Origin: Halomonas ventosae
GTDB lineage: Bacteria; Pseudomonadota; Gammaproteobacteria; Pseudomonadales; Halomonadaceae
Assembly: GCF_004361885.1 (NCBI RefSeq)
Contig: NZ_SNWH01000002.1
Coordinates: 62,001 to 126,000 of the forward strand
Length of the DNA stretch: 64,000 nucleotides
Direction: 5' to 3'
Part shown: positions 110-63,953 of the stretch, piece after piece
How the letters are laid out: each line of letters begins with the position of its first letter
Numbering within the stretch: the stretch's first letter is position 1
The notes under the pieces: model-generated
The model's database searches: none
Told to the model about the DNA's origin: nothing
Seen by the model: the letters and a program-made list of their open reading frames with translations, nothing else
Made by a program: the position numbers and the translations under genes

Positions 110-219
110 GGCGTAGCGCTTCCATGGGCAGCGATACGCCGAGGTTAGCATGCTGGCCAAGGACTGTCCTGCCAACATTCTTGCCAGACATCTCGACGAT
201 AGAGCGCGCCGGCGCAGAA

Positions 220-441
220 TCAGGGCTTGAGGCTGGCGTAGTAGGCGGCGATGTCGGCAATGTCCTGATCGGACAGTGCCTGCGCCTGCGGGGTCATCAT
301 CATGGACATGCCACCGCCCCGCTCACCAGCCCGGTAGGCTTTGAGGGCGCTCTCCAGGTAGGGGGCGTTCTGGCCGGCCAGGTGGGGATAGATGGGTACA
401 GTAGCCTTGCCGGCGCGGCCATGCATGAAACGTCAACAGGC
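220..441 (-). pseudogene. Remnant of a class I cytochrome c (c4/c553-like)
   Basis: An open frame of 68 codons (426-220) reads HGRAGKA, then [18 protein letters not shown] and [15 protein letters not shown]. This is the part of a small soluble c-type cytochrome that follows the heme CxxCH site, including the Met-rich axial ligand region (GGMSMMM). The cysteine before the histidine is replaced by Met. A stop codon lies three codons upstream of that Met, and no signal peptide or heme motif is found in the 60 bp before nsrR. The N-terminal third is therefore missing and the protein could not bind heme covalently. I call it a pseudogene. A short functional product is unlikely. Confidence 0.6.
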
Positions 442-500: not shown

Positions 501-953
501 TCAGGCATCGGATGAGGCGGCGTCGAGCTGCAGCAGCTGGATCAGTTCGCTGCGCTGAGGGCCCACCAGGTCGGCCAGGGTGTAGCGATCGAGCACGGCG
601 AGGAAGGCCGCGAGCGCCTCGGCGAGGACCGGGCTGAGCCGACAGGCGGGAGTGATGATGCAGGGGCTGTCATCGTCGAAGCATTCCACTAGCTTCAGGT
701 CTCGCTCGGTGTCGCGGACCAGTTCCCCCAGGATGATTGTCTGCGGGGCGCGCTTGAGCAGCAGGCCGCCATTCTTGCCCCGGATGGCGGTGATGTAGCC
801 ATGGTGATTGAGATCCTGCACCACCTTCATCAGGTGATTGCGGGAGATATCGAAGCGTTCGGCGATCTCGGTGATGGTCGAGCGTTGCTCGCCCTTGGTG
901 GCCAAAAAGATCAGTACTCGCAGCGAATAGTCGGTGAATCGGGTCAGGTGCAT
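501..953 (-). CDS. nsrR: NsrR, NO-sensing Rrf2-family repressor
   Basis: The product is 150 residues when started at the ATG at 953, which gives the family-typical MHLTRFTDYSLRVLIFLA start; an upstream in-frame ATG at 983 would add ten atypical residues. The winged helix (ITEIAERFDISRNHLMKVV, GYITAIRGKNGG) is followed by three cysteines, C91, C98 and C104, spaced as in the NsrR iron-sulfur cluster site. NsrR proteins lose DNA binding when NO attacks the cluster and so derepress NO-detoxification and nor genes. A fitting target site lies in this window in front of norC (23331-23353), with a weaker one before 50759. The gene appears monocistronic. Confidence 0.88.
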   Translation of the reverse strand: MHLTRFTDYSLRVLIFLATKGEQRSTITEIAERFDISRNHLMKVVQDLNHHGYITAIRGKNGGLLLKRAPQTIILGELVRDTERDLKLVECFDDDSPCIITPACRLSPVLAEALAAFLAVLDRYTLADLVGPQRSELIQLLQLDAASSDA

Positions 954-1189
954 ATGAGTTCCGGCGTGTCGGAGGCCTCGCAAGGCGTAGAGGGAAAGCG
1001 GACGATACTAGCATCCGGCCTATTGGCTGTGATTGGTCTGCGTGGCATTCGGTCGCATGGGGGCGATGACGTTGTTGGCGCCGGGTAGCCCATGGTGGCG
1101 AGTGGCTGTTCGACTTCGCGTCGGCAGGGAGGGGGAGTACCTGTTGGGAGATGCTGCCGCCCCGTCGACTGGCTGCCCGCTTCCTCGAC

Positions 1190-12419: not shown

Positions 12420-12474
12420 GGTCTTCTCCTGGTGAGTCCAGTTGATGGTTACGCTGTTATGCTAAGCCAGTCTT

Positions 12475-12490: not shown

Positions 12491-12533
12491 AAGGGCACTA
12501 CCACACGTCTGCCCGCAGGTGACACCAGCTTCG

Positions 12534-12549
12534 TTCAGGCCGCCGTCAG
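12534..12549 (+). promoter_or_regulatory. Shared response-regulator box, copy 3
   Basis: On the plus strand it reads TTCAGGCCGCCGTCAG, one base different from copy 1, and points towards the response regulator gene 56 bp downstream. It implies autoregulation. Confidence 0.55.
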
Positions 12550-12604
12550 ACAGATCTGCTAGCGTCACGATCAAGAGAGCCGGGTGAAGCAAGGAGGTCA
12601 AGGC

Positions 12605-13264
12605 GTGCGGATATTATTGATCGAGGATGCTCTCCCCCTGGGCGAGGCGGTGCATGATCAGGTCACCGAGGATGGCCATGCGGTGGACTGGATGCAGTGC
12701 CTCAAGCATGCTGAAGCGAGTGTCGCGACAACTTCCTACGACCTGATTCTGCTCGACCTGATGCTGCCCGACGGTCGGGGGATCGAATTCTTAAAACGCC
12801 GTCGCAAGGCGGGCGATACCACACCAGTCATCATTTTGACCGCGCGGGACCAGATTTCCGATCGCATCGAAGGATTGAATGCCGGCGCGGACGACTACCT
12901 GGTCAAGCCCTTCGACCTGGCGGAGCTCTCGGCACGTATCGCCGCCGTGGCGCGGCGCTATGCGGGCAACCCCAATCCGCTGATTCGTGTGGGCGAGCTG
13001 GAGATTGATCTGGTCAGTCATTCGCTTCGCCGGGCAGGATGCAGCATCGAACTCACAGCGCGCGAGTGGGCCTTGTTTGAAGTGCTCGTGCAACATCCAG
13101 ATACGCTGCTGTCGCGGTCTCAGCTCGAGGATCGGCTATATGCCTTTGGTGCGGAGATCGAGAGCAACACTGTCGAGGTGCATATCAGCCGCATACGCAA
13201 GAAGCTGGGACGTGGCAGCATCGAAACCGTGCGTGGCATGGGCTATCGACTGGGGCGAAGATGA
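12605..13264 (+). CDS. OmpR-family response regulator
   Basis: The 219-residue protein has a receiver domain (RILLIEDALPLG with D8; phospho-acceptor D51 in LILLDLMLPDG; conserved K in LVKPFDLAEL) and a winged-helix DNA-binding domain (LTAREWALFEVL, VEVHISRIRKKLG, TVRGMGYRL). The GTG at 12605 is preferred because a perfect AAGGAGGT site lies just upstream; an alternative GTG at 12584 would place that site inside the gene. The stop overlaps the kinase ATG by four bases. It resembles the QseB/PmrA/TctD group. The likely targets are the PepSY/DUF2271 units that share its upstream box. Confidence 0.9.
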   Translation: MRILLIEDALPLGEAVHDQVTEDGHAVDWMQCLKHAEASVATTSYDLILLDLMLPDGRGIEFLKRRRKAGDTTPVIILTARDQISDRIEGLNAGADDYLVKPFDLAELSARIAAVARRYAGNPNPLIRVGELEIDLVSHSLRRAGCSIELTAREWALFEVLVQHPDTLLSRSQLEDRLYAFGAEIESNTVEVHISRIRKKLGRGSIETVRGMGYRLGRR

Positions 13265-14586
13265 GCCGGCCGGTTAGTCTGCAGTATCGCCTCAGCCTTG
13301 GCTTGACGCTGGGGGTGACGCTGCTCTGGCTGATCGCCACCACGGTCACGGCGCTGATCGTTGAACATACTATCGACAGGACCCTGGATAGTTCCCTGGA
13401 AGAGACCGCGCAACGCATCCTGTCGCTGGCCGTCGTCGAGATCTACAGCCGCGAAGATGACGGCATGCTTCAGCAGGTGGCCGCACTGCGCCCTCACGAC
13501 GAGTACATCACCTACTTGATTCGGGAAAGGGATGGCACGCCATTGCTTGCCTCGCATGATGTGGAGCTGTCCACTTTTCCACAGACGCCGCAGGTAGGGC
13601 TGCGCAGCACGGCGACACATCGTCTCTACGGCACCACCGCGGTCAGCGACACCTTTTTCATCGAGGTTGCCGAGCCGTTGGCTTCTCGCCGCCAGACAAA
13701 ATGGCAGGCGATGGCAATGCTGCTCCTGCCGTTGACGGGTCTGATACCCATGAGCCTTATTGGCGTCTGGTGGCTGGTGCGTCATAGCTTGAATGGAGTG
13801 AGAGCGTACCAGCATGCGCTCGCGGCTCGCGGGGCGGGGGATCTGTCTCGGGTGGAGGAGATGCGCCTGCCGGCGGAACTCGTGCCCATCGCCGAGGCGG
13901 TGAACCATCTGCTGGAGCGATTGCGCCGCGCATTGGAGTCTGAACGCAGCTTCACGGCGAACAGCGCCCATGAGCTGCGCACCCCCCTGGCGGCGACCCT
14001 GGCTCAGGTGCAGCGTCTGCGCCACGAAGCGCCGCCGGGGCGGCTGCAGGAGCGGGCGGCCCGCATCGAGGCGTCGCTGCGTGAGCTTTCGCGGCTATCG
14101 GAGAAGCTGATGCAGCTGGCCAAGGCGGAGGGCAGTGGTCTTTTGACCGAGAAGCCCCAGGACGTCAGGCCGATCATTACCCACGTCGTGGATGATTTTT
14201 GTCGTGTGCCCGAGACGCGCCTCGACGTCTTTCTGCCCGAGAAGGCGCCGGTGCTTTCCTCGATTGATCCAGATGCCTTCGCGATCTTGCTCCGCAATCT
14301 GATCGAGAATGCCTTGAAACATGGTGCCGAGGATAAGCCCGTGGAAGTCAATCTGACAGCGGAGGGGATGCTGCGTGTGGTCAACGCGGGGCCGGTGATT
14401 CCGGCAGAGGTTCTCGCTCGGCTGACGGATCGCTTCTCCCGGGGCAATACCCGGGCCAGTGGCTCCGGCCTGGGTCTCGCCATCGCTCAAGCGATTGCGG
14501 CCGGGGTAGGGGCTACCCTCACGCTGGCCTCCCCCGCGACGGACAGGCTGGATGGCTTCGAGGCGCGCCTTCGCCTCCCCTCTTGA
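13261..14586 (+). CDS. Sensor histidine kinase, QseC/PmrB-like
   Basis: The 441-residue membrane kinase has a first span (about 14-36), a periplasmic sensor domain of about 110 residues, a second span (about 150-173), a HAMP-like linker, the phospho-acceptor box SAHELRTPLAATL (H237), the N box LRNLIENALKHG and G box GSGLGLAIAQAI. It phosphorylates the regulator whose gene it overlaps. The sensed signal is unknown. Because the neighbours are PepSY and electron-transfer proteins, metals or periplasmic redox state are plausible inputs. Confidence 0.9.
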   Translation: MSRPVSLQYRLSLGLTLGVTLLWLIATTVTALIVEHTIDRTLDSSLEETAQRILSLAVVEIYSREDDGMLQQVAALRPHDEYITYLIRERDGTPLLASHDVELSTFPQTPQVGLRSTATHRLYGTTAVSDTFFIEVAEPLASRRQTKWQAMAMLLLPLTGLIPMSLIGVWWLVRHSLNGVRAYQHALAARGAGDLSRVEEMRLPAELVPIAEAVNHLLERLRRALESERSFTANSAHELRTPLAATLAQVQRLRHEAPPGRLQERAARIEASLRELSRLSEKLMQLAKAEGSGLLTEKPQDVRPIITHVVDDFCRVPETRLDVFLPEKAPVLSSIDPDAFAILLRNLIENALKHGAEDKPVEVNLTAEGMLRVVNAGPVIPAEVLARLTDRFSRGNTRASGSGLGLAIAQAIAAGVGATLTLASPATDRLDGFEARLRLPS

Positions 14587-14638
14587 GCGATTGGTGCCGC
14601 TAGGCGCCCGACCCGCCGCTAAACTCGCATAGCCCTGC

Positions 14639-15303
14639 TCACAGCCCGATACGGTGCGCCCGGTCGGTAAAGAAGATGCCGCTGGGCGACTCGGCCGGCA
14701 GCCGCGCCACTTCCTCCAGGGTGCGGGTGTCGTAGACCACCACCCGGTCGCTGTCGCGGGCCGAGATCCACACCTGCTCGCCCCGCGGGGTGAACTCCAT
14801 ATGCAGTACCGCCTCGCCCGGTTCCAGGCTGGCCACGATCTCGCGGCGCTCGGTGTCGATCACCTGCACCACGTCGTTGTCGGGGTGGGCGAAGTTGACC
14901 CACACCTGGCGCTCGTCGGGACGGGTCATCACGAAGACCGGCTGGCCATGAACCGGGATACGGTCGATCAACGACCAGTCATCGGCGTCGGCGACCAGCA
15001 CCTCGTGGCGGCCCACCGCCGGTAGCCAGGCCGCGTCATCGGCCAGCGCCCAGCCCTCCAGATGGGGCATCTTGTAGACCTGCAGGCGCTCCTCGCCGTG
15101 GCCGTAGTTCGGCAGGATGCGTTTCACACCCTGCTCCGGGTGCCACAGGTCGAGCAGCGTCAGGCCATCTTCGCCGAACAGCCCGGCGATGTAGTAGCGC
15201 CCGCTGGGGTCGATCAGGGCGTCGTAGGGTTCCTCGCCGATAGCGGTGAAGCGGGTCACCTCGGGAGTGTCGCCGTGCATGTCGACCAGCTGGATCTGGC
15301 CGG
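14639..15303 (-). pseudogene. nirF: nirF remnant (C-terminal two thirds)
   Basis: The frame encodes the end of NirF, a periplasmic beta-propeller protein needed for heme d1 maturation. It has PYDALIDPSGRYYIAGLFGEDG, PHLEGWALADDAAW, GQPVFVMTRPDERQVWVNFAHPDND and the family's C-terminal PSGIFF..RAHRIGL. Similarity begins abruptly at about 15303, where on the other strand nirJ sequence begins. The signal peptide and N-terminal third are therefore missing. No start signal is present at the first ATG (15280). I regard it as a truncated remnant. Confidence 0.82.
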
Positions 15304-15884
15304 CGCTACAGCAAGCAGGACGCCTGGTACCGCATGACCCGCGACGCCATGACCCGGTTGTTCGACCACTGTCGTGACGAACTCGAGCGCGGCGTGGCGC
15401 GCGAGTACGTCACCGGCAACAACGACGCCGACGGCCCCTTCCTGCTGATGTGGGCTCGCCAGCACTTCCCCGAGCAGGCCGAGGCCCTGGAACGGCAGCT
15501 GCTCAACTGGGGCGGCAACGCCTCCGGCGAGCATATCGCCAACATCGACAACCTGGGCCACGTCCACCCCGACACCTTCTGGTGGGACCACGACCTGGGC
15601 AATGTACGCGAGCGACCCTTCTCCGAGATCTGGCGCGACACCCGGGACCCCTTGATGCTGGGTTTTCGCCAGCGACCGCGGCCGTGAAGGGGCGCTGCGG
15701 TGAGTGCCGCTATCTGGCGATCTGCAACGGCAATACCCGAGTGCGGGCCTGGAAGGTCTCCGGTGACCCCTGGGAAGAGGATCCCGGCTGCTACCTGACC
15801 AACGGCGAGATCGGGGTCGAGGGCGCCGGCGAGCGCCGTATCTTTGCCCCCTATGAGGCCATCCAGGCCGTCGAACTTCCGTAG
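15304..15884 (+). pseudogene. nirJ: nirJ remnant, truncated and frameshifted
   Basis: It matches the C-terminal half of NirJ, the radical-SAM enzyme of heme d1 synthesis: YVTGNNDADGPFLLMWARQH, GGNASGEHIANIDNLG, HPDTFWWDHDLGNVRERPF, then CGECRYLAICNGNTRVRA with the auxiliary-cluster cysteines. The first part is in one frame up to about 15675 and the second in another from 15677, so a one-base change near 15676 breaks the gene. The N-terminal radical-SAM domain with its CxxxCxxC motif is absent. Confidence 0.85.
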
Positions 15885-15903
15885 GCTTGCGAGGAATTCC
15901 GCC

Positions 15904-16012
15904 ATGCCGTCACGTCGCGTTTCCTATGACCTCGCCGAGTCTCCTCTGGCGCCCGGCGAGGTGGCCATCGTCGGTGCCGGGCCCGGCGACCCGGGGCTGC
16001 TGATTCAAGACC
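15904..16012 (+). pseudogene. nirE: nirE remnant (N-terminus only)
   Basis: Starting at an ATG with an AGGAAT-like site, about 36 codons encode the beginning of a uroporphyrinogen-III C-methyltransferase: PGEVAIVGAGPGDPGLL is the SAM-binding start of NirE/CobA/CysG enzymes. The match stops after GLL and passes directly into nirN-like sequence, so a deletion removed the rest. Gene order nirJ-nirE-nirN is the order known in Pseudomonas nir clusters, which supports NirE over CysG. Confidence 0.72.
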
Positions 16013-16720
16013 CGCTACGCCCTGCACGGCGGGCCCAAGTTCAGCCCCGATGGGCGCCATGTTTTCTTCGGCTCGCGGGATGGTTGGATCACCAAGGTCG
16101 ACCTCTACAACCTGACGGTAGTGGCCGAGGTGCGCGCCGGCATCAACATGCGCAATATCGCCGTCTCCGCCGATGGCCGCTATGTGATGGCCGCCAACTA
16201 CCTGCCCCATAGCCTGGTACTGTTCGACGCCCACAACCTCGATCTGATGAAGGTCTACCCGGTGGTGGGCGAGGATGGCGAGAGCTCCCGGGTCAGTGCC
16301 GTCTATGCCGCTCCGCCGCGGGGCAGCTTCATTGCTGCCCTCAAGGATCTCAAGGAGGTGTGGGAGATTCCCTGGCCGTTGCCCGCCGAGCCGGTGGTCG
16401 CCACCGGTCACATGGCCACTCCGCTCGAGCCGCAGCGCCGCCACGACACGCCCACCTTCCAGGTGCGGCGCATCCCGGTGCCCGACTACTTGGACGACTT
16501 CTTCTTCGATCTCGAATATGAACACGTCATCGGCGCCTCCCGAGGTGGGGAGAGTGACGGCCAGGGTGGCATGGTGATCAACCTGGATAGCGGCGCAAAG
16601 GTGGCCGACCTGCCGCTGGAGGGAATGCCCCACCTCGGCTCGGGCATCACCTGGGAGTATCAGGGGCGTCGCGTCATGGCGCTGCCGCACCTCACCAAGG
16701 CGGCGGTCAGCCTCTCTTCG
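16013..16720 (+). pseudogene. nirN: nirN-like cytochrome d1-domain remnant
   Basis: The frame encodes most of a d1-type beta-propeller: YALHGGPKFSPDGRHVFFGS, SRDGWITKVDLYNL, AGINMRNIAVSADGRYVMAANY, PEYLDD-like PDYLDDFFFD and GMPHLGSGITWEYQGRRVMA. NirN resembles nitrite reductase NirS and inserts the last double bond in heme d1. The cytochrome c domain expected before it and the final blades are missing at both ends. The frame runs to a stop at 16765 through sequence that no longer looks like the family. NirF or NirS identity is less likely. Confidence 0.68.
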
Positions 16721-16761
16721 CTCGCGACAGGATTGAGCGGCTTTTGTTATAAGAAGTATTA

Positions 16762-16775
16762 TTGATACTTGTCAT
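16762..16775 (+). promoter_or_regulatory. Dnr/Anr box upstream of nnrS
   Basis: TTGATACTTGTCAT matches TTGAT-N4-GTCAA at nine of ten positions. A CACAAT -10 element at 16798-16803 puts the box centre near -41.5, the class II activator position. Confidence 0.65.
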
Positions 16776-16837
16776 GGAAGGCGCGCCGGGAGTGGGGCAC
16801 AATAGCCATAACCAAGCGTTTTAGTCGGGTATGCGCC

Positions 16838-18052
16838 ATGCAATCGACCTCTTCCTCATCCGTCCGCTCCACCACGCTGTCGCGCCTGCCGGTGGCGCGC
16901 CTGGCCTTCCGCCCCTTCTTCCTGCTGGCCGCGCTGTTCAGCGTGATCGCCATGGGGGTATGGTTGGCCTTCTGGCATGGCGACATCCTGCTGCGTCCCG
17001 TCGGTGGCCTGATCTTCTGGCACCAGCACGAGATGCTATTCGGTTTCGCCGCCGCCGTGGTGGCGGGTTTTTTGCTCACCGCGGTGCAGAACTGGACCGG
17101 GCTGCCCAGCCTCAAGGGGGGGCGGCTGCTGGCGCTGGTCGGGCTCTGGCTGGCCGGGCGGGTGTTAATGGCCTTTCCCCTGGGCCTGCCGGCCTGGCTG
17201 CCGATGCTGGTCGACCTGGCCTTCCTGCCAGTGGTGGCGGGGGTCATGGCCATGCTGGTGATCGAGGCGAAGCGCTGGCGCAACCTGGTCTTCCTGCCGG
17301 CCCTGGCGCTGCTGACCCTGGCCAACCTGGCCATGCACCTGGGGGCGTTGACCGGCGACGCCGAGCTGATTCGCCAGGCCGCCTACCTGGCGGTGCTGCT
17401 GTTCACCCTGCTGATGGTGGTGGTGGGCGGCCGGGTGATCGCCATGTTCACCGCCAATCGCCTGGGGCTGACCCTCAGGCCGCCGATCCCGGCCCTGGAG
17501 ACCCTGAGCCTCGGCAGCGTGATGGCGGTGGTGGTTGCCCAGTTGCTGGTGATGCTCGGCGTGGCGCTCCCCGCCGTACTGCTGGCCGTGCTGATGGGAC
17601 TGGCCGCCCTGGTCAACGCCATTCGGCTGTCGCGCTGGCGAGGCCTTCACAGCTGGCGCGAGCCGTTGCTCTGGGCACTGCATCTGAGCTACGCCTTCAT
17701 TCCCGTGGGCCTGGCCATGTGGGCCTTGGCGCTGCTGGGGGCCTTTCGGGCCGAGTTGGCGGTACACGCCCTGACCATCGGCGGCATGGGCACCATGATG
17801 CTGGCGATGATGTCGCGGGTCTCGCTGGGCCATACCGCGCGCCCCATCCGCACCCTGCCGGGCATCGGCGTGGCCCTGGGGCTGATGGGCGCCGCGGCGC
17901 TGCTGCGCTCACCCGTGTTGGCGCTCTTCCCGCAGATCACCCACTGGACCTACAACCTGGGCATCATCTTCTGGTGCCTGGCCTATGGCATCTTCCTGTT
18001 CCACTACACGGGGCCGCTGCTCTCGGCCCGGCCCGACGGCAAGGTTGGCTAG
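16838..18052 (+). CDS. nnrS: NnrS family heme-copper membrane protein
   Basis: NnrS proteins are polytopic inner-membrane proteins, heme- and copper-containing, induced by NO and found with denitrification genes; they protect against nitrosative stress. This one has 404 residues, about twelve hydrophobic segments and the family motifs ARLAFRPFF (near residue 20) and FWHQHEMLFGFAAAVVAGFLLTAV. The ATG at 16838 lies 28 bp after the start site predicted from the box at 16762; the open frame reaches further up but would cross the promoter. It may head a short operon with the next genes. Confidence 0.9.
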   Translation: MQSTSSSSVRSTTLSRLPVARLAFRPFFLLAALFSVIAMGVWLAFWHGDILLRPVGGLIFWHQHEMLFGFAAAVVAGFLLTAVQNWTGLPSLKGGRLLALVGLWLAGRVLMAFPLGLPAWLPMLVDLAFLPVVAGVMAMLVIEAKRWRNLVFLPALALLTLANLAMHLGALTGDAELIRQAAYLAVLLFTLLMVVVGGRVIAMFTANRLGLTLRPPIPALETLSLGSVMAVVVAQLLVMLGVALPAVLLAVLMGLAALVNAIRLSRWRGLHSWREPLLWALHLSYAFIPVGLAMWALALLGAFRAELAVHALTIGGMGTMMLAMMSRVSLGHTARPIRTLPGIGVALGLMGAAALLRSPVLALFPQITHWTYNLGIIFWCLAYGIFLFHYTGPLLSARPDGKVG

Positions 18053-18136
18053 CCGGACGCCTCATGCCAGCGGCGCGCCGCAGGCGTCGCGCCTCGCACC
18101 GATGATTCCGCCGTTACCCGACGCAAGGAGGCAGAC

Positions 18137-18526
18137 TTGCTGGAACACTATGTCCTGATCAAGCAGCTGCATGTCACGGCGGCCAGCCTGAGCATCCTGT
18201 TCTTCATGCTCCGGGCCTGGTGGTCGGTGCGGGAGATCCCCCTGCTGCAGCGTCGCTGGGTGAAGGTGCTGCCCCACCTCATCGATAGCACCTTGCTGGC
18301 GCTGGGCGTGACACTGATGGTGATGCTCTCGCTATGGCCCCACCAGCATCCCTGGCTGGCCGCCAAGCTGATCGCCCTGCTGGCCTACATCGGCCTGGGC
18401 ACGGTGGCGATCAAGCGCGGCCGGACACCGCGGGCAAGAGCCATTGCCGCCCTGGCGGCGGTACTCACCTTCGCCTACATGCTGGGCGCGGCGATCCGTC
18501 ATAGCGCGCTTTCCTGGCTGGCCTGA
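18137..18526 (+). CDS. SirB2-family membrane protein
   Basis: The 129-residue protein has four predicted membrane segments and the SirB2 pattern (YVLIKQLHVTAASLSILFFMLRAW at the start, WVKVLPHLIDSTLLALGVTL, then WLAAKLIALLAYIGLG). SirB2 was named from Salmonella regulation, but the molecular function is not known. The start is a TTG at 18137, five bases after a strong AAGGAGGC site. It is 84 bp downstream of nnrS and next to nor-associated genes, which suggests a role in respiration. Confidence 0.75.
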   Translation: MLEHYVLIKQLHVTAASLSILFFMLRAWWSVREIPLLQRRWVKVLPHLIDSTLLALGVTLMVMLSLWPHQHPWLAAKLIALLAYIGLGTVAIKRGRTPRARAIAALAAVLTFAYMLGAAIRHSALSWLA

Positions 18527-18599
18527 CGCAAGGGATGAGCGTGCTGGACCATGGCTGGCCTATACTGTCCCGGCCACTCTTGTTCAGAAGGACGATCTC

Positions 18600-18917
18600 A
18601 TGTCGAAACAGGAACTTCCCGCCGGCGCCGGCCAGGTAGCCGAGCAGTATCCCGAGATCTGGGAAGCCTACGCTGAGTTGGGCCGGGCCTGTGCCGAGTC
18701 CGGCCCGCTGGACGCGCGCACGCGGCGCCTGGTCAAGCTGGCGCTGGCGGTGGGCGCGCGTTCCGAGGGTGCCGTGCACTCCCATGTACGGCGTGGCCTG
18801 GAGGAGGGCGAGTCCGCCGCGGCGCTCAAGCAGGTAGCCATGCTGGCCATTCCCACCCTGGGCCTGCCCAGCGGCGTCGCGGCGTTGACCTGGATCGAGG
18901 ACATCACCGAGTCCTGA
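18600..18917 (+). CDS. Carboxymuconolactone decarboxylase/AhpD-like protein
   Basis: The 105-residue all-helical protein belongs to the CMD/AhpD-like family (LDARTRRLVKLALAVGARSEGAVHSHVRRGLEEG, then LKQVAMLAIPTLGLPSG). The usual CxxC redox pair of AhpD is replaced here (EGAVHSH retains only the His), so peroxidase-partner activity is doubtful. The ATG at 18600 follows an AAGGA site. Its genuine substrate is unknown. Confidence 0.78.
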   Translation: MSKQELPAGAGQVAEQYPEIWEAYAELGRACAESGPLDARTRRLVKLALAVGARSEGAVHSHVRRGLEEGESAAALKQVAMLAIPTLGLPSGVAALTWIEDITES

Positions 18918-18928
18918 CCCCCGGTAGG

Positions 18929-23419: not shown

Positions 23420-23872
23420 ATGGCCGATGGTCTCACCAAGTCGGCGGCCCGCAACATCTTCTACGGCGGGTCGCTGTTCTTCTTTCTGCTGTTTGCCGCA
23501 CTGACGGCGCACAGTCACTGGTACATGGTCCACACATCCACCGACAGCGCAGGGCTCACCGAGTCCGTCAAGCACGGCAAGGAAGTGTGGGAAAAGAACA
23601 TGTGCATCAACTGCCACACCATCATGGGCGAGGGCGCCTACTTCGCGCCGGAGCTGGGCAATGTCTGGGAACGCTACGGCGGGCACAAGAACCCGGAGGC
23701 GGCCCGCGCGGGGCTTGCCGCGTGGATCCGCGCCCAGCCGCTGGGCGCCCAAGGGCGCCGCCAGATGCCGGCCTTCGACCTCAGCGAGGAGGAGATGCAA
23801 TCGCTGATCGACTTCCTGGAGTGGACCGACGGCATCGACGCCCAGGGCTGGCCGCCGAATTCCGCCGGCTGA
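23420..23872 (+). CDS. norC: Nitric oxide reductase, cytochrome c subunit
   Basis: NorC is a membrane-anchored cytochrome c that passes electrons to NorB. The 150-residue product has one N-terminal span (about 14-32), heme site CINCH (C62, C65, H66), axial Met in RQMPAF, and typical length. It starts the norCBQD operon under Dnr and NsrR sites. Confidence 0.95.
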   Translation: MADGLTKSAARNIFYGGSLFFFLLFAALTAHSHWYMVHTSTDSAGLTESVKHGKEVWEKNMCINCHTIMGEGAYFAPELGNVWERYGGHKNPEAARAGLAAWIRAQPLGAQGRRQMPAFDLSEEEMQSLIDFLEWTDGIDAQGWPPNSAG

Positions 23873-23923
23873 GCCGGCTCGCTGGACCGCCGGACCGCGG
23901 ATCAATCAAGGAGAACGACACCG

Positions 23924-25279
23924 ATGAAATACGAAACCCAGAAGGTGGCCCTGCCCTTCTTCATGGTGGCCATGGCGCTGTTCGCGTTGCAGATCGTCTT
24001 CGGGCTGCTGGCTGCCTCCGTCTATGTCTGGCCAAATTTCATGGCCGAGATCATGCCCTTCAACATCATGCGGGTCAGCCACACCAACCTGCTGATCGTC
24101 TGGCTGCTGATTGGCTTCATGGGCTGCACCTACTACCTGATGCCGGAAGAGGCCGAGCAGGAGATCCACAGCCCCACCATCGCTTATATCCAGTTGGCGC
24201 TGTTTGCCTTCGCCGGCGCCGCGGCGCTGGTCGGCTATCAGTTCGGGATCCACGAGGGACGCGAGTTCCTGGAGCAGCCGTTCTGGGTCAAGCTGCTGAT
24301 CACCATCTCCTTCCTGATGTTCTTGTTCAACACCAGCATGACCCTGCTCAAGGGCCGCAAGACTGCCATCAACATGGTGCTGATGCTGGGCCTGTGGCTG
24401 GCCGCGGTGTTCTGGCTGTTCGCCTTCTACAACCCCTCCAATCTGGCGGTGGACAAGCTCTACTGGTGGTGGGTGGTTCACCTCTGGGTCGAGGGCGTGT
24501 GGGAGTTGATCATGGCCTCGCTGCTCGGCTACCTGTTGATCAAGATGACCGGCGTCGACCGCGAGGTGATCGAGAAGTGGCTCTACATCATCGTCGGCCT
24601 GTCGCTGTTCTCAGGCCTGCTGGGCACCGGCCACCATTACTACTGGATCGGCGCACCGGGCTACTGGCAGCCCATCGGTAGCATCTTCTCCGCCCTGGAG
24701 GTAGTCCCCTTCTTCGTCATGGTGGTGTTCGCCTTCACCATGTTCTGGAAGGGCAGCCGCAACCATCCCAACAAGGCCGCCATGCTGTGGAGCCTGGGAT
24801 GTCCGGCCATGGCCTTCTTCGGCGCCGGCGTGTGGGGCTTCATGCATACCCTGAGCTGGATCAACTACTACAGCCATGGCACCCAGGTCACGGCCGCCCA
24901 CGGCCACCTGGCCTTCTATGGGGCCTACGTGATGCTGATCCTCGGCGTGATCACCTTCGCCATGCCGCAGCTGCGCCGCGTTCAGCCCTACAACCAGGTG
25001 CTGAACATGTGGGGCTTCTGGATCATGACTAGCGCCATGGCCTTCATGACCTTCACGCTGACCTTCGCCGGTGTCGTCCAGACCCATCTGCAGCGCGTGC
25101 TGGGCATGAACTACATGGAGGTGCAGGACCAGCTCGGACTCTTCTACATGATGCGCCTGGGCGCCGGTGTCGCGGTGGCCGTGGGGGCGATCATGCTGCT
25201 CTACGCCTTCTTCGGTCCGGCCCGCGAGCAGGTGCCGGCTGGTGGCACCCAGCTGACCGCAGGCCCTGAGCGCGCCTGA
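23924..25279 (+). CDS. norB: Nitric oxide reductase, catalytic subunit
   Basis: NorB reduces 2 NO to N2O at a heme b3/FeB centre. The 451-residue protein has about twelve spans and the conserved NIMRVSHTNLLIVWLLIGFMG, YWWWVVHLWVEGVWELI and GTGHHYYWIG segments that carry the heme and iron histidines and glutamates. It lies 51 bp after norC and is followed by a terminator. Confidence 0.96.
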   Translation: MKYETQKVALPFFMVAMALFALQIVFGLLAASVYVWPNFMAEIMPFNIMRVSHTNLLIVWLLIGFMGCTYYLMPEEAEQEIHSPTIAYIQLALFAFAGAAALVGYQFGIHEGREFLEQPFWVKLLITISFLMFLFNTSMTLLKGRKTAINMVLMLGLWLAAVFWLFAFYNPSNLAVDKLYWWWVVHLWVEGVWELIMASLLGYLLIKMTGVDREVIEKWLYIIVGLSLFSGLLGTGHHYYWIGAPGYWQPIGSIFSALEVVPFFVMVVFAFTMFWKGSRNHPNKAAMLWSLGCPAMAFFGAGVWGFMHTLSWINYYSHGTQVTAAHGHLAFYGAYVMLILGVITFAMPQLRRVQPYNQVLNMWGFWIMTSAMAFMTFTLTFAGVVQTHLQRVLGMNYMEVQDQLGLFYMMRLGAGVAVAVGAIMLLYAFFGPAREQVPAGGTQLTAGPERA

Positions 25280-25285
25280 TCACCC

Positions 25286-25310
25286 GAGGGCCCCGCTCGG
25301 GGCCCTCTTT
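25286..25310 (+). terminator. Rho-independent terminator after norB
   Basis: A 9-bp GC stem (GAGGGCCCC at 25286-25294, GGGGCCCTC at 25299-25307) with a 4-base loop is followed by TTT. Read-through is presumably needed for norQD, or they have their own promoter. Confidence 0.78.
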
Positions 25311-25351
25311 CGTTCGGTTCTTCGTAAATTACCCTGACAGGAGTGATCTTC

Positions 25352-26164
25352 ATGCCCCTTTCTTCCGTGGCCGCCAACGCCAGCGAGCAAGAGATTCCCT
25401 ATTACCAGAGCGTGGGCAACGAGTGCGCGATGTTCGAGCAGGCGTTCCAGCAGCGCCTGCCGCTGCTACTCAAGGGACCGACCGGCTGCGGCAAGACCCG
25501 CTTCGTCAGTCATATGGCGGCGAAGCTCGGCAAGCCGCTGTTCACCGTCTCCTGTCACGATGACCTGACCGCCGCCGACCTCACCGGGCGCTACCTGCTG
25601 CAGGGCGGCGAGACGCGCTGGGTCGACGGCCCGCTGACCCGTGCGGTGCGCGAGGGCGGCATCTGTTACCTCGACGAGGTGGTGGAGGCGCGCAAGGACG
25701 TCACCGTGGTGCTGCACCCGCTCACCGACGACCGGCGAATGCTGCCGCTGGAGCGCACCGGCGAGCTGCTCGAGGCCCCCGACGACTTCATGCTGGTGGT
25801 CTCCTATAACCCCGGCTACCAGCACATCCTCAAGTCCCTGAAACCCAGCACCCGCCAGCGCTTCGTGGCGATGTCCTTCGACTTCCCGCCGCCGGCGGTG
25901 GAGCGTGACATCGTCGCCCGCGAGAGCGGCCTCGCGCCGGAGCGCTGCGCGGCGCTGGTCAACCTGGCGGCCAGCCTGCGCGCCATGAAGGGCCAGGATC
26001 TGGAGGAGGGCGTCTCCACCCGCCTGCTGGTCTACTGCGCGACCCTGATCGGCACCGGCATGCCGATCCTCGATGCCGCCCGCGCCACCCTGGTGGAGCC
26101 GCTCTCCGACGATGCCGACGTCCAGGAGGGGCTGATGGAAGCCATTCACGCCACCTTCGGTTAA
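25352..26164 (+). CDS. norQ: NorQ, MoxR-family AAA ATPase
   Basis: NorQ and NorD insert the non-heme iron (FeB) into NorB. The 270-residue ATPase has Walker A GPTGCGKTR (42-50), Walker B ICYLDEV, and sensor region VVSYNPGYQ, with the CbbQ/NorQ C-terminal segment GVSTRLLVYCA. The ATG at 25352 lies eight bases after AGGAG; a GTG nine bases earlier is too close. Confidence 0.93.
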   Translation: MPLSSVAANASEQEIPYYQSVGNECAMFEQAFQQRLPLLLKGPTGCGKTRFVSHMAAKLGKPLFTVSCHDDLTAADLTGRYLLQGGETRWVDGPLTRAVREGGICYLDEVVEARKDVTVVLHPLTDDRRMLPLERTGELLEAPDDFMLVVSYNPGYQHILKSLKPSTRQRFVAMSFDFPPPAVERDIVARESGLAPERCAALVNLAASLRAMKGQDLEEGVSTRLLVYCATLIGTGMPILDAARATLVEPLSDDADVQEGLMEAIHATFG

Positions 26165-26227
26165 TCAGGTATCACATGGAACAGAGGGAGAAAGGGGGCA
26201 TCGGGGACAAGCCGAAGAGGAGGTCCT

Positions 26228-26300
26228 ACGCCATGGATGGCGTCGGTAGCGTACAGGGAGGTATTCACAGCGCCTCCTCGCAGGCTTGTACCCGAATTAG
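26228..26300 (-). repeat. REP-like palindromic element between norQ and norD
   Basis: The 163-bp norQ-norD gap holds a 7-bp hairpin (ACGCCAT-GG-ATGGCGT, 26228-26243), then GTACAGGGAGGTATTCACAG and GGCTTGTACCCG. From memory this arrangement resembles small dispersed repeats of Halomonas and related genomes. Only one copy is in this window, so the repeat nature cannot be shown here. Confidence 0.4.
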
Positions 26301-26327
26301 CCCCTTTCGATACCCGGGAGCTTGAAT

Positions 26328-28274
26328 ATGCTGGACTTTCTTGAGGTCGAGGAGACCGTCGGCCGCTTCTGGCACCGCTGGGCCTCCGGCGCGGCGAGCT
26401 ACCCCGACCACCCCGAGGCGGCGGTGACCCTCGAGAGCCTGCGCCCCATGCTCGGCGTCTTCTTTCGTGCCGGCGGCGGCGAGGCCGGCCTCGAGGTGGC
26501 CGCCATCGCCCGGCGTGGTTCCGCCCACCGGCTGAGCCTGCGCCAGCGCCTGGGCCTCGACGAGGAGGACCTCGACCAGGCTCGCCGCGACGAGGAGCAC
26601 CTGCTGCTGCCGCCGCGCCTGGCGCTCTTCCCCGAGGCCGCCCTCAACCGCGACCTCTACCTGTGGCTCACCGCCTTCCTGGCCGAGGCCCGGCCGGTGA
26701 CGCTTCCCGCGGACCCGCTGCAGGCCGATCTGGCGCGCCTGCGCGAGGCACGCCGCACCGCACGGGCCGCCCTGGCCCGCTTCCCGGGACTGACGGATCG
26801 CTATGTACGCCTGTGCGGCGAGTTGCTCGCCATTCGCCCGCAGCGCAAGCGCCTGCCGCCCAGGGAGGCGGCCCTGGAGGCGGTACTCTGCGCCGAGCTG
26901 GGTGCCCCCGATCCAGAAGACGCCTGGGCAGCGGCCATGCAGCGCGCCATCCGCGAGTCGGACTTCCCGCTGGAGGAGTTCTATGCCCCGCGCGGCTACC
27001 GCCCGCCATTGCCGGTGCCGCTGTGGGGCCAGGCCGTGACCCTGGGCACCCGCGACGGCGCCCGCGAAGCCACCGTCGACGACGATGACGACATGGCGGC
27101 TGCCGGTGACTCCCCCGAGGATGACCAGGGCAAGCGCAAGGCCGACCGCCGCGAGCAGGACCAGGCCGACCGCGACGACCCGCTGATGCTCAACAACCTG
27201 GAGAAGATGCTCTCCTGGGCCGAGATGGTGAACCTCAACCGCCTCGTGGACGACGATGAAGAGGAAGAGGCCAAGAAGGCCGCCGACCAGATCGACGAGA
27301 TCGTGCTGACGCCCAACCGCAAGAAGGCAGCCACCCGACTAAAGCTCGACCTCGACCTGGCCCCGGATGAGGTCGCTGGTGGTCGGCTGACGGGGCGCCA
27401 TACCTATCCCGAGTGGAATCACCGCAAGCAGGCCTACCTGCCCGATCACTGCGTGGTGCTCAGCGACGTGCAGAGCGAGGAGGGAGAAAACTGGACCCCC
27501 GACGAGGCGACACGTCGGCGCATCCGCCGGGTGCGCCGCGAGTTCGAGGCCCTGCGACCGCGGCGCGAGCTCCTGCGTGGCCAGCTGGACGGCAGTGAGC
27601 TGGACATGGACGCGGTGATCCGCGCTCGCTGCGACCTGGCCGCCACGGGCGAATCCAGCGACCGGCTCTACGTGGACACCCGCACCCAGGCCCGCGACCT
27701 GGTGGTATCGATCCTGGTGGACGTCTCGCTCTCCACCGAGGCCTGGCTGCAGGATCGCCGAGTGCTGGACGTGGCCAAGGAGGCGCTGCTAGTGCTGGGC
27801 CATGGCCTGGCCGGCTGCGGCGATGATTATTCGATCCACAGCTTCACCTCCCAGCGCCGCCACAAGGTGTGGGTCAAGACCCTCAAGGCCTTCGACGAAC
27901 CCATGGGCGAGCGGGTTGCGCGGCGTATCGCCGCGCTCAAGCCGGGCAGCTATACCCGCATGGGGCCGGCGATCCGCCACCTGACCGGGCAGCTGGCCGA
28001 GCGACCCAATCGCCATCGTCTGCTGCTGCTGCTGACCGACGGCAAGCCCAACGACAACGACTACTACGAGGGGCGCTACGGCATCGAGGACACCCGCAAG
28101 GCGGTGCTCGAGGCGCGCCGCCAAGAGATACGGGTGTTCGGGGTGACCATCGACCGCGAGGCAGGGCGCTATATCCCGCATCTCTTCGGCCGCGGCGGCT
28201 ACGCCATCGTGCAGCGTCCCGAGCACCTCTCCCTGGCACTGCCGGGCATCTATCGCCAGATCATCGCCAGCTGA
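26328..28274 (+). CDS. norD: NorD, VWA-domain nitric oxide reductase activation protein
   Basis: NorD is a 648-residue cytoplasmic protein that works with NorQ in NorB maturation. A long helical N-terminal part is followed by an acidic, variable middle (270-330) and a C-terminal von Willebrand A domain with the metal-binding motif LVDVSLSTEAW (DxSxS) and LLLLTDGKPND. The ATG at 26328 follows GGGAG; a TTG two codons earlier is possible. It follows norQ and the REP-like element. Confidence 0.92.
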   Translation: MLDFLEVEETVGRFWHRWASGAASYPDHPEAAVTLESLRPMLGVFFRAGGGEAGLEVAAIARRGSAHRLSLRQRLGLDEEDLDQARRDEEHLLLPPRLALFPEAALNRDLYLWLTAFLAEARPVTLPADPLQADLARLREARRTARAALARFPGLTDRYVRLCGELLAIRPQRKRLPPREAALEAVLCAELGAPDPEDAWAAAMQRAIRESDFPLEEFYAPRGYRPPLPVPLWGQAVTLGTRDGAREATVDDDDDMAAAGDSPEDDQGKRKADRREQDQADRDDPLMLNNLEKMLSWAEMVNLNRLVDDDEEEEAKKAADQIDEIVLTPNRKKAATRLKLDLDLAPDEVAGGRLTGRHTYPEWNHRKQAYLPDHCVVLSDVQSEEGENWTPDEATRRRIRRVRREFEALRPRRELLRGQLDGSELDMDAVIRARCDLAATGESSDRLYVDTRTQARDLVVSILVDVSLSTEAWLQDRRVLDVAKEALLVLGHGLAGCGDDYSIHSFTSQRRHKVWVKTLKAFDEPMGERVARRIAALKPGSYTRMGPAIRHLTGQLAERPNRHRLLLLLTDGKPNDNDYYEGRYGIEDTRKAVLEARRQEIRVFGVTIDREAGRYIPHLFGRGGYAIVQRPEHLSLALPGIYRQIIAS

Positions 28275-57156: not shown

Positions 57157-60100
57157 ATGAGTCACTTCATCGATCGGCTGAACTTCTTCCGCAAGACCCG
57201 CGAACCCTTCGCCAACGAGCATGGCGAGGTCCGCCAGGAGTCCCGCGAGTGGGAAGACGGCTACCGGCAGCGCTGGCAGCACGACAAGATCGTGCGCTCC
57301 ACCCATGGCGTTAACTGCACTGGGTCATGCAGCTGGAAGATCTACGTCAAGAACGGTCTGGTCACCTGGGAGACCCAGCAGACTGACTACCCGCGTACCC
57401 GACCCGACCTGCCCAACCACGAGCCGCGGGGCTGCCCGCGCGGCGCCAGCTACTCCTGGTACATGTACAGCGCCAACCGCCTTAAGTACCCGCTGATCAG
57501 AAAGCCCTTGCTCAAGCTGTGGCGCGAGGCACTCGCGGCGCAGGGAGATCCGGTCGATGCCTGGGCGTCCATCGTCGAGGATACGGCCAAGACCAAGCAG
57601 TACAAGCGGGCACGTGGCCTGGGCGGTTTCGTGCGCGCCGACTGGGACGAGCTCAACGAGCTGATCGCCGCCTCCAACGTCTATACCGCCAAGCAGTACG
57701 GCCCGGATCGCATCATCGGCTTCTCGCCGATTCCCGCCATGTCGATGATCAGCTACGCCGCCGGCACCCGCTACCTGTCGCTGATCGGCGGTGTCTGCAT
57801 GAGCTTCTATGACTGGTACTGCGATCTGCCGCCGGCCAGCCCCCAGACCTGGGGCGAGCAGACCGACGTGCCGGAATCCGCCGACTGGTACAACTCGGGC
57901 TACATCATCGCCTGGGGCTCTAACGTGCCGCAGACGCGTACCCCGGATGCCCACTTCTTCACCGAGGTGCGCTACAAGGGCACCAAGACGGTGTCCGTCA
58001 CTCCGGACTACGCCGAGGTCTCCAAGCTTACCGACGAGTGGCTCTCCGCCAAGCAGGGCACCGATGCCGCCCTGGCCATGGCCATGGGGCATGTGATCCT
58101 CAAGGAGTTCCACCTCGACAAGCCCAGCGCCTACTTCACCGACTACGTGCGGCGCTACACCGACATGCCGTTTTTGGTCGAGCTCGAGGCGCGCGAGGAC
58201 GGTAGCTACGCGCCGGGCCGCCAGATGCGCGCCAGCGATTTCGAGGCGAGCCTGGGCCAGGGCAACAACCCGGAGTGGAAGATCGTCGCCTGGGACGAGA
58301 CCCGCGACCAGCTGGTGGTGCCGCGCGGCTCCATCGGCTTCCGCTGGGGCGAGACCGGCGATGAGGTCGGCAAGTGGAACCTCGAGTCGCTGGACGCCGA
58401 AGGCAGCGAGATCACGCCGCTGCTGACCCTGGCCGAGCGGCATGACGAGGTGGCCAAGGTCGCCTTCCCCTACTTCGGTGGCATCGCCCACGAGCACTTC
58501 GATCACGTCAAGAGCGGTGGCGCCAGCGATGAGCTGCTGTTCCACAGCCTGCCCGCCAAGCGACTTAAGAAGGCCGACGGTAGCGACGTGCTGGCGGTGA
58601 CCGTGTTCGACCTGATGTGCGCCAACTACGGCATCGACCGCGGGTTTGGACAAGAGGGCGAGGACGACGGAGCCACCTCCTTCGACCAGGTCAAGCCCTA
58701 CACCCCGGCCTGGCAGGAGAAGATCACCGGTGTACCGGCCGAACAGGCCACCCGCATCGCTCGCGAGTTCGCCGACAACGCCCACAAGACCCAGGGGCGC
58801 AGCATGATCATCGTCGGTGCCGGCATGAACCACTGGTACCACATGGACATGAACTACCGCGGCCTGATCAACATGCTGGTCATGTGTGGCTGCATCGGCC
58901 AGAGCGGTGGTGGCTGGGCGCACTACGTGGGCCAGGAGAAGCTGCGCCCGCAGACCGGCTGGACCCCGCTGGCATTCAGCCTCGACTGGCACCGCCCGCC
59001 GCGCCATATGAACTCCACCTCCTTCTTCTACAACCACTCCTCGCAATGGCGCTACGAGAAGCTCGAGATCAAGGAGATCCTCTCGCCGCTGGTCAAGGCC
59101 GAAGACTATTCGGGCAGCCTGATCGACTTCAACGTGCGCGCCGAGCGCATGGGCTGGCTGCCCTCCGCGCCGCAGCTTTCCACCAACCCGTTGCGCCTGG
59201 CCAAGGCCGCCGAGGCCGCCGGCCTGTCCACCAAGGACTACGCCGTTGAGCAGCTCAAGGAGGGCAAGCTGGCCTTCGCCGCGGAGGACCCGGACAACCC
59301 CCAGAACTTCCCGCGCAACATGTTCATCTGGCGCTCCAACCTGCTGGGCAGCTCCGGCAAGGGCCATGACTACCTGCTCAAGTACCTGCTGGGCGCCAAC
59401 CACGGGGTGCAGGGCAAGGACCTGGGTAAGATGGACGGCATCAAGCCCGAGGAGGTCAAGTGGCACGACGAGGCCCCCGAGGGCAAGCTTGATCTGCTGG
59501 TGACCCTGGACTTCCGCATGTCCACCACCTGCCTCTACTCGGACGTCGTGCTGCCCACGGCGACCTGGTACGAGAAGGACGACCTCAACACTTCCGACAT
59601 GCACCCCTTCATCCACCCGCTGACTGCGGCCACCGACCCAGCCTGGGAGTCGCGCAGCGACTGGGAGATCTACAAGGGTATCGCCAAGGCCTTTTCCAAG
59701 GCCTGCGTGGGACATCTGGGCGAGGAGACCGACCTGGTCACCCTGCCGCACCAGCACGACTCCCCGGCCGAGCTGGCTCAGGTCGAGGTCAGGGACTGGA
59801 AGAAGGGCGAGTGCGAGCCGATTCCCGGCAAGACCATGCCGGCGCTGATCGAGGTCAAGCGGAACTATCCCGAGACCTATGAGCGCTTCACCTCCATCGG
59901 CCCGCTGCTCGAGAGCATCGGCAATGGCGGCAAGGGCATCAGCTGGAACACCGAGAAGGAGGTGGAGCTGCTCGGCAGGCTCAATCACCGCAAGCTGGAC
60001 GGGCCGCACAAGGGGCGTCCGCAGATCGAGTCGGCCATCGATGCCGCCGAGATGATCCTGACCCTGGCGCCGGAGACCAACGGCCAGGTGGCGGTGAAAG

Positions 60101-60929
60101 CCTGGCAGGCGCTTTCCAAGATCACCGGGCGCGACCACGCCCACCTGGCGCATCCCAAGGAGGAGGAGAAGATCCGCTTTCGCGACATCGTCGCCCAGCC
60201 GCGCAAGATCATCTCCAGCCCCACCTGGTCAGGCCTCGAGGACGAGCATGTCTCCTACAACGCCGGCTACACCAACGTCCACGAGTTGATCCCGTGGCGC
60301 ACCGTCAGCGGTCGCCAGCAGTTCTACCAGGACCACCCCTGGATGCGCGCCTTCGGCGAGAGCCTGCTGGTCTATCGGCCACCCATCGACACCAAGGCGG
60401 TGGCCAGCGTCCATGCACCCAAGAGCAACGGTAACCCGGAGATCGCCCTGAACTGGATCACCCCGCACCAGAAGTGGGGCATCCACTCCACCTACAGCGA
60501 CAACCTGCTGATGCAGACCCTGTCGCGGGGCGGTCCCATCGTCTGGCTCTCCGAGGACGATGCCAAATCCATCGGTGTCGAGGACAACGACTGGATGGAG
60601 CTCTACAACGCCAACGGCGCGGTCACCGCCCGGGCAGTAGTCAGCCAGCGGGTCAAGAGCGGCATGGCGATGATGTATCACGCCCAGGAGCGACTCCTGA
60701 ATATCCCCGGTTCGGAAATCTCCGGCACGCGGGGCGGTATCCACAACTCGGTGACCCGCGTGTGTCCCAAGCCGACCCACATGATCGGCGGCTATGCCCA
60801 GCTCGCCTACAGCTTCAACTACTACGGCACCGTCGGCTCCAACCGCGATGAATTCGTCATCGTGCGCAAGATGCGCCGGATCGACTGGCTGGACGGCGAA
60901 GGCAATGACTACGAGCAGGAGGCCGTGAA

Positions 60930-60933
<4 letters not shown>
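57157..60933 (+). CDS. narG: Respiratory nitrate reductase, alpha subunit
   Basis: NarG carries the molybdenum bis-MGD cofactor and reduces nitrate to nitrite on the cytoplasmic face of the membrane. The 1258-residue product has the FS0 iron-sulfur site with His (STHGVNCTGSCSW: H50, C54, C58; and C93 in RGCPRGASYSWY), the Mo-site segment SGYIIAWGSNVPQTRTPDAH and a C-terminal molybdopterin-binding domain (TPHQKWGIHSTYSDN). There is no twin-arginine signal, as expected for NarG. It is the first gene of narGHJI. Confidence 0.97.
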
Positions 60934-62490
<1,557 letters not shown>

Positions 62491-62498
<8 letters not shown>

Positions 62499-63279
62499 GG
62501 CAGCGCTGCAACACCCCGCCGCGGAGCCGGACATGCTGAGCCTGCGCGTGCTGGCCCGGCTGCTCGACTACCCCTCCGCAGAACTCCAGGCCGCCGCACC
62601 GGAGATGATCGAGCTCCTCGACGCCGAGCGCCGCTGGGAGGCGGCGCTGCGCACCCGCCTGATGGACTGGTGTCAGCGCCTGCTGGAGGCCGACCTGATG
62701 GAGCTGCAGGCTGAGTACGTGGCACTGTTCGACAAGGGGCGCAGCACCTCGCTGCTGCTTTTCGAGCACGTCCACGGCGAGTCCCGCGATCGCGGCCAGG
62801 CCATGGTCGACCTGATGGCTGAGTACAGCGCCGCGGGCTTCGAGCTCGATGCCCGTGAGCTGCCCGACTACTTGCCGCTGTTCCTGGAGTACCTCTCGAC
62901 CCGCCCGGACGCCGACATCGGCCGCTGGCTGGGCGAGATTCGCCATATCCTGGCACTGCTCGCCGCCCGACTGGAGGAGCGCGATGCCGACCATGCCCTG
63001 GTGCCGCTGGCGCTGCTGGCGCTGATCGGCGCCGAGGGGGACGTCGACGCCCACCGCGAGACGGTGAAGGAGGAGGCACCCGACGACACCCCCGAGGCAC
63101 TGGACGAGGTGTGGGAGGAAGAAGCGGTGCGCTTCAGCGCCGCCTCCGACGAGGACTGCGCCCTGCAGTCCGCCGAGGGCCAGCGACTCGCCGAGCGCAA
63201 GAACGTGACGCACAGCGAGGCGGTGCGGGTCCTCGATCCCGCCTCCGTCGCCGCCAGGCATCAAGGAGACCAGTCATGA
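62491..63279 (+). CDS. narJ: Nitrate reductase assembly chaperone
   Basis: NarJ helps insert the molybdenum cofactor into NarG and is not part of the final enzyme. The 262-residue helical protein has LLDYPSAEL near the start and YVALFDKGRSTSLLLFEHVHGESRDRGQAM, typical of the TorD/NarJ family. Its ATG overlaps the narH stop by eight bases and its stop overlaps narI. Confidence 0.94.
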
Positions 63280-63953
63280 GCTACTTTACTACCCTGCTGT
63301 TCGGGCTCTACCCCTACCTTGCCGGCACCGTCTTCCTGGTTGGCAGCCTGCTGCGCTTCGATCATGGCCAGTACACCTGGAAGAGCGGATCGAGCCAGAT
63401 GCTGACTTCCCGGAACATGCGCATGGCCAGCAACCTCTTCCATGTCGGCATCCTGGTGATCTTCTTCGGCCATCTGGTGGGCCTGCTGACCCCGCACTGG
63501 GTCTACGCGCCCTTCATGAGCGCCGGGACCAAGCAGCTAGTCGCCATCCTGGTCGGCGGCATCGCCGGCGTGATGTGCCTGGTGGGAGGCGCCATGCTGG
63601 CCCATCGCCGCCTGACCAACCCGCGGGTGAGGGCCTCGTCCAGCACCATGGATACCGTCATCATTGTGCTGTTGGTCGTGCAGGTCTCGCTGGGTCTTTT
63701 GACCATCATCCCCGCCCTGGGCCACCTGGACGGCGGCGTGATGCTTCAGCTCGCCGGCTGGGCACAGTCCATCGTGTTTTTCCAGGGCGGTGCCGCGGGC
63801 TACCTCGACGAGGTCGGCCTGATCTACAAGCTGCACATTCTGGTGGGCCTGACCATCATCCTGCTGTTCCCCTTCACCCGTCTGGTGCATGTGTGGAGCG
63901 TGCCCTTCGGCTACGTGACTCGCCGCTATCAGCTCGTGCGGCGTAGAGGGTAA
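63276..63953 (+). CDS. narI: Respiratory nitrate reductase, gamma subunit
   Basis: NarI is the membrane cytochrome b that takes electrons from quinol. The 225-residue product has five spans, with heme ligands expected in RMASNLFHVGILVIFFGHLVG and YKLHILVGLTIILLFPFTRLVH. It is the last nar structural gene; the ATG overlaps the narJ stop. Confidence 0.95.
   Translation: MSYFTTLLFGLYPYLAGTVFLVGSLLRFDHGQYTWKSGSSQMLTSRNMRMASNLFHVGILVIFFGHLVGLLTPHWVYAPFMSAGTKQLVAILVGGIAGVMCLVGGAMLAHRRLTNPRVRASSSTMDTVIIVLLVVQVSLGLLTIIPALGHLDGGVMLQLAGWAQSIVFFQGGAAGYLDEVGLIYKLHILVGLTIILLFPFTRLVHVWSVPFGYVTRRYQLVRRRG

Follow-up and report, generated by a model that had tools for sequence, protein, structure and literature searches.

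The analysed window is a stretch of 64,000 nucleotides, positions 62001-126000 of contig C2 in the 3.24-Mb, 64-contig draft assembly of Halomonas ventosae studied here (G000). Genes were listed from open reading frames of at least 90 amino acids picked by codon-position GC, and synteny alignments were made with a minimum length of 150, 120, 60 or 100 bases, depending on the comparison. G077, the closest relative examined, served as the reference for sizes, identities and missing genes. As shown in Table 1, the window holds remnants of nirF, nirJ, nirE and nirN, the joins that bound them, further scars on the left, and, on the right, full-length nnrS and the nor and nar genes.

Table 1. Features of the denitrification region, in window coordinates
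Feature	Position	Strand	Description
nos scar	~157-203		nosLYFDZR, ~8 kb in G077, G030, G002 and G020, missing
Cytochrome c gene remnant	204..411	-	truncated; intact gene adjoins nosR in G077
Rrf2-family regulator	501..983	-	full-length; NsrR-like by position; Pfam Rrf2 3e-35
Scar of second nnrS-family gene	~1065-1179		~1.2 kb missing relative to G077, G030 and G002
Junction 0, sensor kinase gene/nirF 3' end	14587..14622		24.7 kb of G077 missing, including ubiU and ubiV
nirF remnant	14639..15304	-	C-terminal codons ~189-409 (G077 nirF numbering), original stop kept; N-terminal part deleted
Junction 1, nirF/nirJ	15297/15298		~5.8 kb removed relative to G077; from anchored alignments to six relatives
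nirJ remnant	15298..15884	+	C-terminal half, from ~codon 206; 1-nt deletion near 15684
nirE remnant	15904..16003	+	first 33 codons; ATG at 15904, inferred start codon
Junction 2, nirE/nirN	16003/16004		~1.2 kb removed relative to G077; blunt, out of frame, no shared run
nirN remnant	16004..16707	+	internal codons ~166-400 of 527 (G077 numbering)
Junction 3, nirN/upstream of nnrS	16707/16708		~0.4 kb removed relative to G077 (nirN 3' part)
nnrS	16838..18052	+	full-length; Pfam NnrS 1.2e-102
norC, norB, norQ, norD	23420..28274	+	norC and norD assigned from domain and position
narGHJI	57157..63953	+	

The nirF piece was 92.7% identical in DNA to nirF of G077 and matched Pfam Cytochrom_D1 at E 1.6e-62, and the nirN piece was 92.2% identical to its G077 counterpart and matched the same family at E 5.3e-36. 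These E-values and the DNA identity of about 92% to intact genes exclude chance resemblance. Aligned with G077 in the same order and on the same strand, the window showed 92.7% identity at 14623-15304, 92.2% at both 15298-15998 and 16004-16707, and 96.9% at 16749-18958. The nearest named relatives of the NirF piece were mostly Halomonas, with a best identity of 89%; plasmid records gave 21 matches at 60-80% identity, all of which spanned less than 80% of the query. The 1-nt deletion that shifts the nirJ frame was absent from all six aligned relatives. A 15-nt gap near 15848 in nirJ was considered as an additional lesion and rejected, being common to G030, G042 and G046. nirF, nirJ and nirE are all cut by deletions, and none of these heme d1 genes is intact at the locus. 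A sequence-only reading of this DNA had proposed four incomplete nir genes (the C-terminal part of nirF on the minus strand, a frameshifted C-terminal half of nirJ, the start of nirE and an internal part of nirN), and the identities and alignments confirm them; the truncated start of nirE is present, with 33 codons and not the 36 given there.

In G077, intact nirF (-) and a small cytochrome c gene (nirC by position, -) lie beside nirS (+) and four genes for NirD/L/G/H-type proteins, after which come radical SAM NirJ, methyltransferase NirE, NirN and NnrS. The intact order in relatives is nirF(-)nirC(-) / nirS(+)-D-L-G-H-J-E-N(+), then nnrS(+), and the order of the nir region is the same in G030, G002 and G020. 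By hand count among the matches listed, nirF and nirJ matches shared one contig in 55 of the 59 relatives with a nirF match and lay on different contigs in four. In all 55 same-contig relatives nirF was on the strand opposite to nirJ, as in G000, so the minus-strand position of nirF is ancestral. A rearrangement with inversion of nirF would agree with its strand in G000, which is opposite to that of nirJ-E-N and differs from the Pseudomonas nir order, where nirF is not opposite to these genes. This origin has next to no probability, however, given the identical orientation in every same-contig relative listed and the divergence of nirF and nirC from nirS in intact G077. Comparison with relatives that keep the cluster thus refuted the proposal that nirF is inverted and upheld the ancestral plus-strand order nirJ-nirE-nirN, since their clusters run ...J-E-N(+). 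Nor are the remains scrambled, as had been suggested: the pieces are collinear and on the same strand as the intact clusters of relatives and break exactly at the joins, as in a decayed cluster of the Halomonas NirS2 type, and among the matches listed the relatives' nir matches extend at most a few bases beyond any G000 junction. Because the relatives' order already has nirF(-)nirC(-) divergent from nirS(+), deletions alone suffice. As read from these alignments, three collinear deletions and one 1-nt deletion in nirJ explain the nir remnant.

The largest of the three deletions, at junction 1, removes the 5' part of nirF, nirC, nirS, nirDLGH and the 5' half of nirJ. A 6-base run at 15299-15304 is common to both sides of this join in several relatives, and base 15298 fits the nirJ side only. 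At junction 3, G088 was the one examined relative with an alignable right flank; in it the right side also has the 8 bases at 16699-16706, whereas base 16707 agrees with nirN alone. The third nir join, junction 2, has no such run. As short shared runs adjoin two of the three joins, to within a base, illegitimate recombination or replication slippage would fit as the source of the deletions. The claim that all junctions lie inside genes holds for junctions 1 and 2, which are intragenic on both sides, and fails for junction 3, where nirN meets sequence lying upstream of nnrS.

We searched the whole G000 assembly for remaining nitrite reductase and nir genes. The PF02239 profile matched only the nirF and nirN pieces, and the NirS protein search gave one match, at E 5.3e-5, among the matches listed. 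No NirK was found above the family cut-off in G000, the best match reaching 74.8 bits against a cut-off of 296.3, and replacement of nirS by nirK was rejected on this score. A DNA search with the G077 nir region (L034:5000-15300) recovered, among the best 40 of 382 candidates, the three nir pieces together with the nnrS flank, several copies of an element adjacent to nirF in G077, and a stretch on G000 contig C1 that matches part of the nirE region at 71%. No other DNA match to the missing nir genes, including nirD, nirL, nirG and nirH, was found among the best 40 of these 382 candidates; nirC, nirD, nirL, nirG, nirH and ubiV were sought in G000 by DNA search alone. The PF02239, NirS and nir-region searches also led us to reject a second nir set elsewhere in G000. 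With three internal deletions and a frameshift, the assembly is therefore left without a nitrite reductase or a complete heme d1 pathway. The genome-wide check thus found no NirS beyond the one weak match, and the proposal that cytochrome cd1 nitrite reductase was lost while nar and nor were kept is supported, narGHJI and norCBQD being present. By eye, the element beside the 3' end of nirF in G077 (L034, ~4880-5588) reads as a degenerate transposase-like gene, and G000 has related DNA at several places, which include the very starts of contigs C11 and C20.

The affected stretch is, on synteny, larger than 14639-16720: losses of nos, a second nnrS and ubiUV in the same island were missed by the sequence-only reading. 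The G077 block upstream contains nosL, nosY-/nosF-type ABC proteins, nosD, nosZ, a nosR-type gene, cytochrome c, the Rrf2 regulator and the second nnrS-family gene; domains and position are the basis for the names nosY, nosF and nosR. NosZ had no match anywhere in G000. Junction 0 rests on synteny in G077, G078 and G048 among the matches listed, and some of its 24.7 kb may have been inserted later in G077. When 19.1 kb of this segment was searched in G000, only partial matches appeared among the best 40 of 440 candidates, the longest being 600 bases at 74% and the closest 94 bases at 95%; a further 5 kb of it (C47:145001-149998) lay outside this search. Genome-wide, the best UbiU match in G000 among those listed scored 147 bits, below the 440-bit cut-off. 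UbiU and nirF occurred together in at least 57 genomes and on one contig in 49; among the matches listed, the distance from UbiU to nirF was at most 50 kb in all of these 49 and at most 15 kb in 38.

A wrong join in the contig that passes over genuine nir, nos and ubiUV genes could also produce such losses. G000 is a 64-contig draft, and the copies of the nirF-adjacent element at the first bases of C11 and C20 indicate that repeats break this assembly. However, the skipped genes were absent from the other contigs in the searches above, the genome is listed as 99.99% complete, and no more than 8 bases are shared at any of the three resolved joins. For the artefact to hold, several distinct joins, the frameshift and a three-module loss would each need to be an error, and we consider it very unlikely.

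Constraint on the retained genes was examined from changes on the G000 branch, using five outgroups per gene and keeping changes on which at least 75% of the outgroups agreed. NorB matched the solved cNor subunit B at 2e-190, with NorC, NorQ and NorD domains adjoining. On its own branch, norB had 11 nonsynonymous against 24 synonymous changes (P = 1.9e-8 against neutrality), and narG had 49 against 68 (P = 1.7e-16). For nnrS the own-branch counts were 13 against 11 (P = 0.05), or 12 against 7 with the outgroups of the fragment test described below, and strong constraint was not found in these counts with five outgroups. Because own-branch constraint on nnrS is weak, its retention by selection is doubtful, which lends no support to a NO-defence reading for this gene. 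From the gene content, reduction of nitrate to nitrite by Nar would still be possible, whereas neither the step from nitrite to NO nor that from N2O to N2 would have a known dissimilatory route. cNor would then be kept mainly for NO defence.

The nir fragments were subjected to a similar branch test, with up to eight relatives having at least 70% fragment coverage and the same 75% outgroup agreement. The G000 branch carried 16 nonsynonymous and 19 synonymous changes (35 assignable), and the G077 branch 7 and 14 (21 assignable). Neutral evolution would make 76% of the changes nonsynonymous, significantly more than the 16 of 35 observed (P = 1.2e-4). The two branches did not differ (Fisher P = 0.41); omega was ~0.27 on the G000 branch, based on its 35 own changes, and 0.16 on the G077 branch. 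The unconstrained fraction of the G000 branch was estimated at 0.03-0.13, with intervals from 0 to ~0.4. No significant relaxation of selection was detected in the fragments, with 35 own changes in an area of mosaic divergence. Since the fragment changes are mostly constrained and the branches are not different, most of the divergence predates inactivation. Inactivation would then be recent relative to the split from G077, to be read with caution because the area has mosaic divergence.

The synonymous difference between G000 and G077 falls from 0.16-0.21 across the three long fragments to 0.085 for nnrS and 0.009 for the gene after it. The fragments are also more divergent from G077 (92-93% identity) than the flank to their right (96.9%) and a large part of that to their left, and neighbouring segments show mosaic identity, as might be seen if the fragments had been acquired already broken by transfer and had not decayed in place. 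Yet gene order across the fragments and their flanks is that of relatives, and pairwise substitution ratios in the fragments resemble those between intact genes; we give this origin slightly less credence still than a mis-assembly. Elsewhere in the window, a two-component-system block at 12012-14565 was 81-83% like G077, and the stretch before it 96%. The G077 segment C47:125001-127441 was 99.96% like G078 and 99.1% like G048 among the matches listed, a near-identity that points to recent exchange among the three. The gene for NrdJ, a class II ribonucleotide reductase (4277-8029), carries an intein-like insertion with a LAGLIDADG domain at 5739-6865, which is absent from G030, G002, G020 and G082 and aligned throughout in G077.

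Across the genus, 90 genomes were searched, 81 of them of good quality, and NirS was counted as present at E 7.4e-70 or better. NorB was found in 69 of the 90, NosZ above its cut-off in 59, NirK above its cut-off in 4, NirS in at least 58 and UbiU above its cut-off in at least 68; NarG matched at E 0.001 in at least 83, some of these matches being only distant. Among the matches listed, NorB occurred without NirS or NirK in eight of the 81 good genomes (G000, G010, G037, G065, G067, G069, G075 and G082). In G067, nirS may lie in an assembly gap, because this draft of ~270 contigs still has nirF, nirJ and nirN matches. Two of the eight, G000 and G082, also lacked NosZ and UbiU among the matches listed. 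In G082 (C3:240001-268000), nar, nor and nnrS were present, NirS, NosZ and UbiU were below thresholds and no nir stubs were seen among the matches listed; G082 may have reached the same end state in a cleaner form. NirS without UbiU was found in G040 and G045, and UbiU without NirS in nine good genomes, among the matches listed, which disfavours a strict coupling of UbiU to denitrification. Among the matches listed, a full nirS between nirF and nirJ is seemingly absent from G046 and G019 (C35); both carry a 47%-identical second NirS type elsewhere, a possible replacement of nirS, and G046 has a short broken match at C18:19685-19858.

Taken from this one assembly, the locus is very probably the decayed remainder of a Halomonas-type denitrification island, its nir genes lost by collinear deletions. 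The deletions would be recent and would have followed relaxed selection on denitrification. A fuller proposal, to which we give somewhat less than even confidence, is loss by module: nir, nos and the oxygen-independent ubiquinone synthesis of ubiUV would have been lost recently and jointly, with Nor and Nar remaining constrained, leaving G000 midway to the nar-nor-only, UbiU-less and stub-free state of G082. In Pseudomonas aeruginosa, inactivating ubiT or ubiUV abolished nitrate respiration, according to excerpts of PMC6747719. By analogy with this loss, the Nar retained in G000 may work only with ubiquinone made under some oxygen, or with another quinone. The locus offers a legible recent case of a complete denitrifier becoming a nitrate-to-nitrite organism that keeps Nor, in which each broken gene aligns to intact relatives. 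A specialist would not be surprised by such pathway loss; the case is unusually legible. It also indicates that norB, nirF or nirN matches alone do not imply nitrite reduction, and it raises the question whether loss of nir and nos tends to be accompanied by loss of ubiUV.

Searches of open-licence PMC papers listed no printed description of this nir deletion scar. This is ordinary reductive decay, and the NorB-without-Nir state has already been published for Halomonas in the excerpted text of PMC8014003. In that text, Halomonas nirS2 is grouped with nirCFDLGHJEN beside norBC. The G000 fragments are collinear pieces of such a nirCFSDLGHJEN (NirS2) cluster; unlike it, G000 lacks nirS, nirC and nirD, L, G and H, and F, J, E and N are stubs. 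The Halomonas titanicae group is described in the same excerpts as having nar, c-nor and nos, with neither nirS nor nirK. It shares with G000 the possession of nar and c-nor without nirS or nirK, but it keeps nos, whereas in G000 NosZ is missing and nir stubs persist. Thermus caliditerrae YIM 77925 (PMC9270275, in part) resembles G000 as a nitrate reducer with a broken nirS, its nirS and norB being pseudogenes; it belongs to another phylum, its lesions are C-terminal truncations, and its norB is broken too, unlike that of G000. Incomplete denitrification gene sets in genomes are the subject of the surveys PMC4250227 and PMC12569097, as far as their excerpts tell. Those are genome surveys, whereas in G000 the individual deletions can be read.
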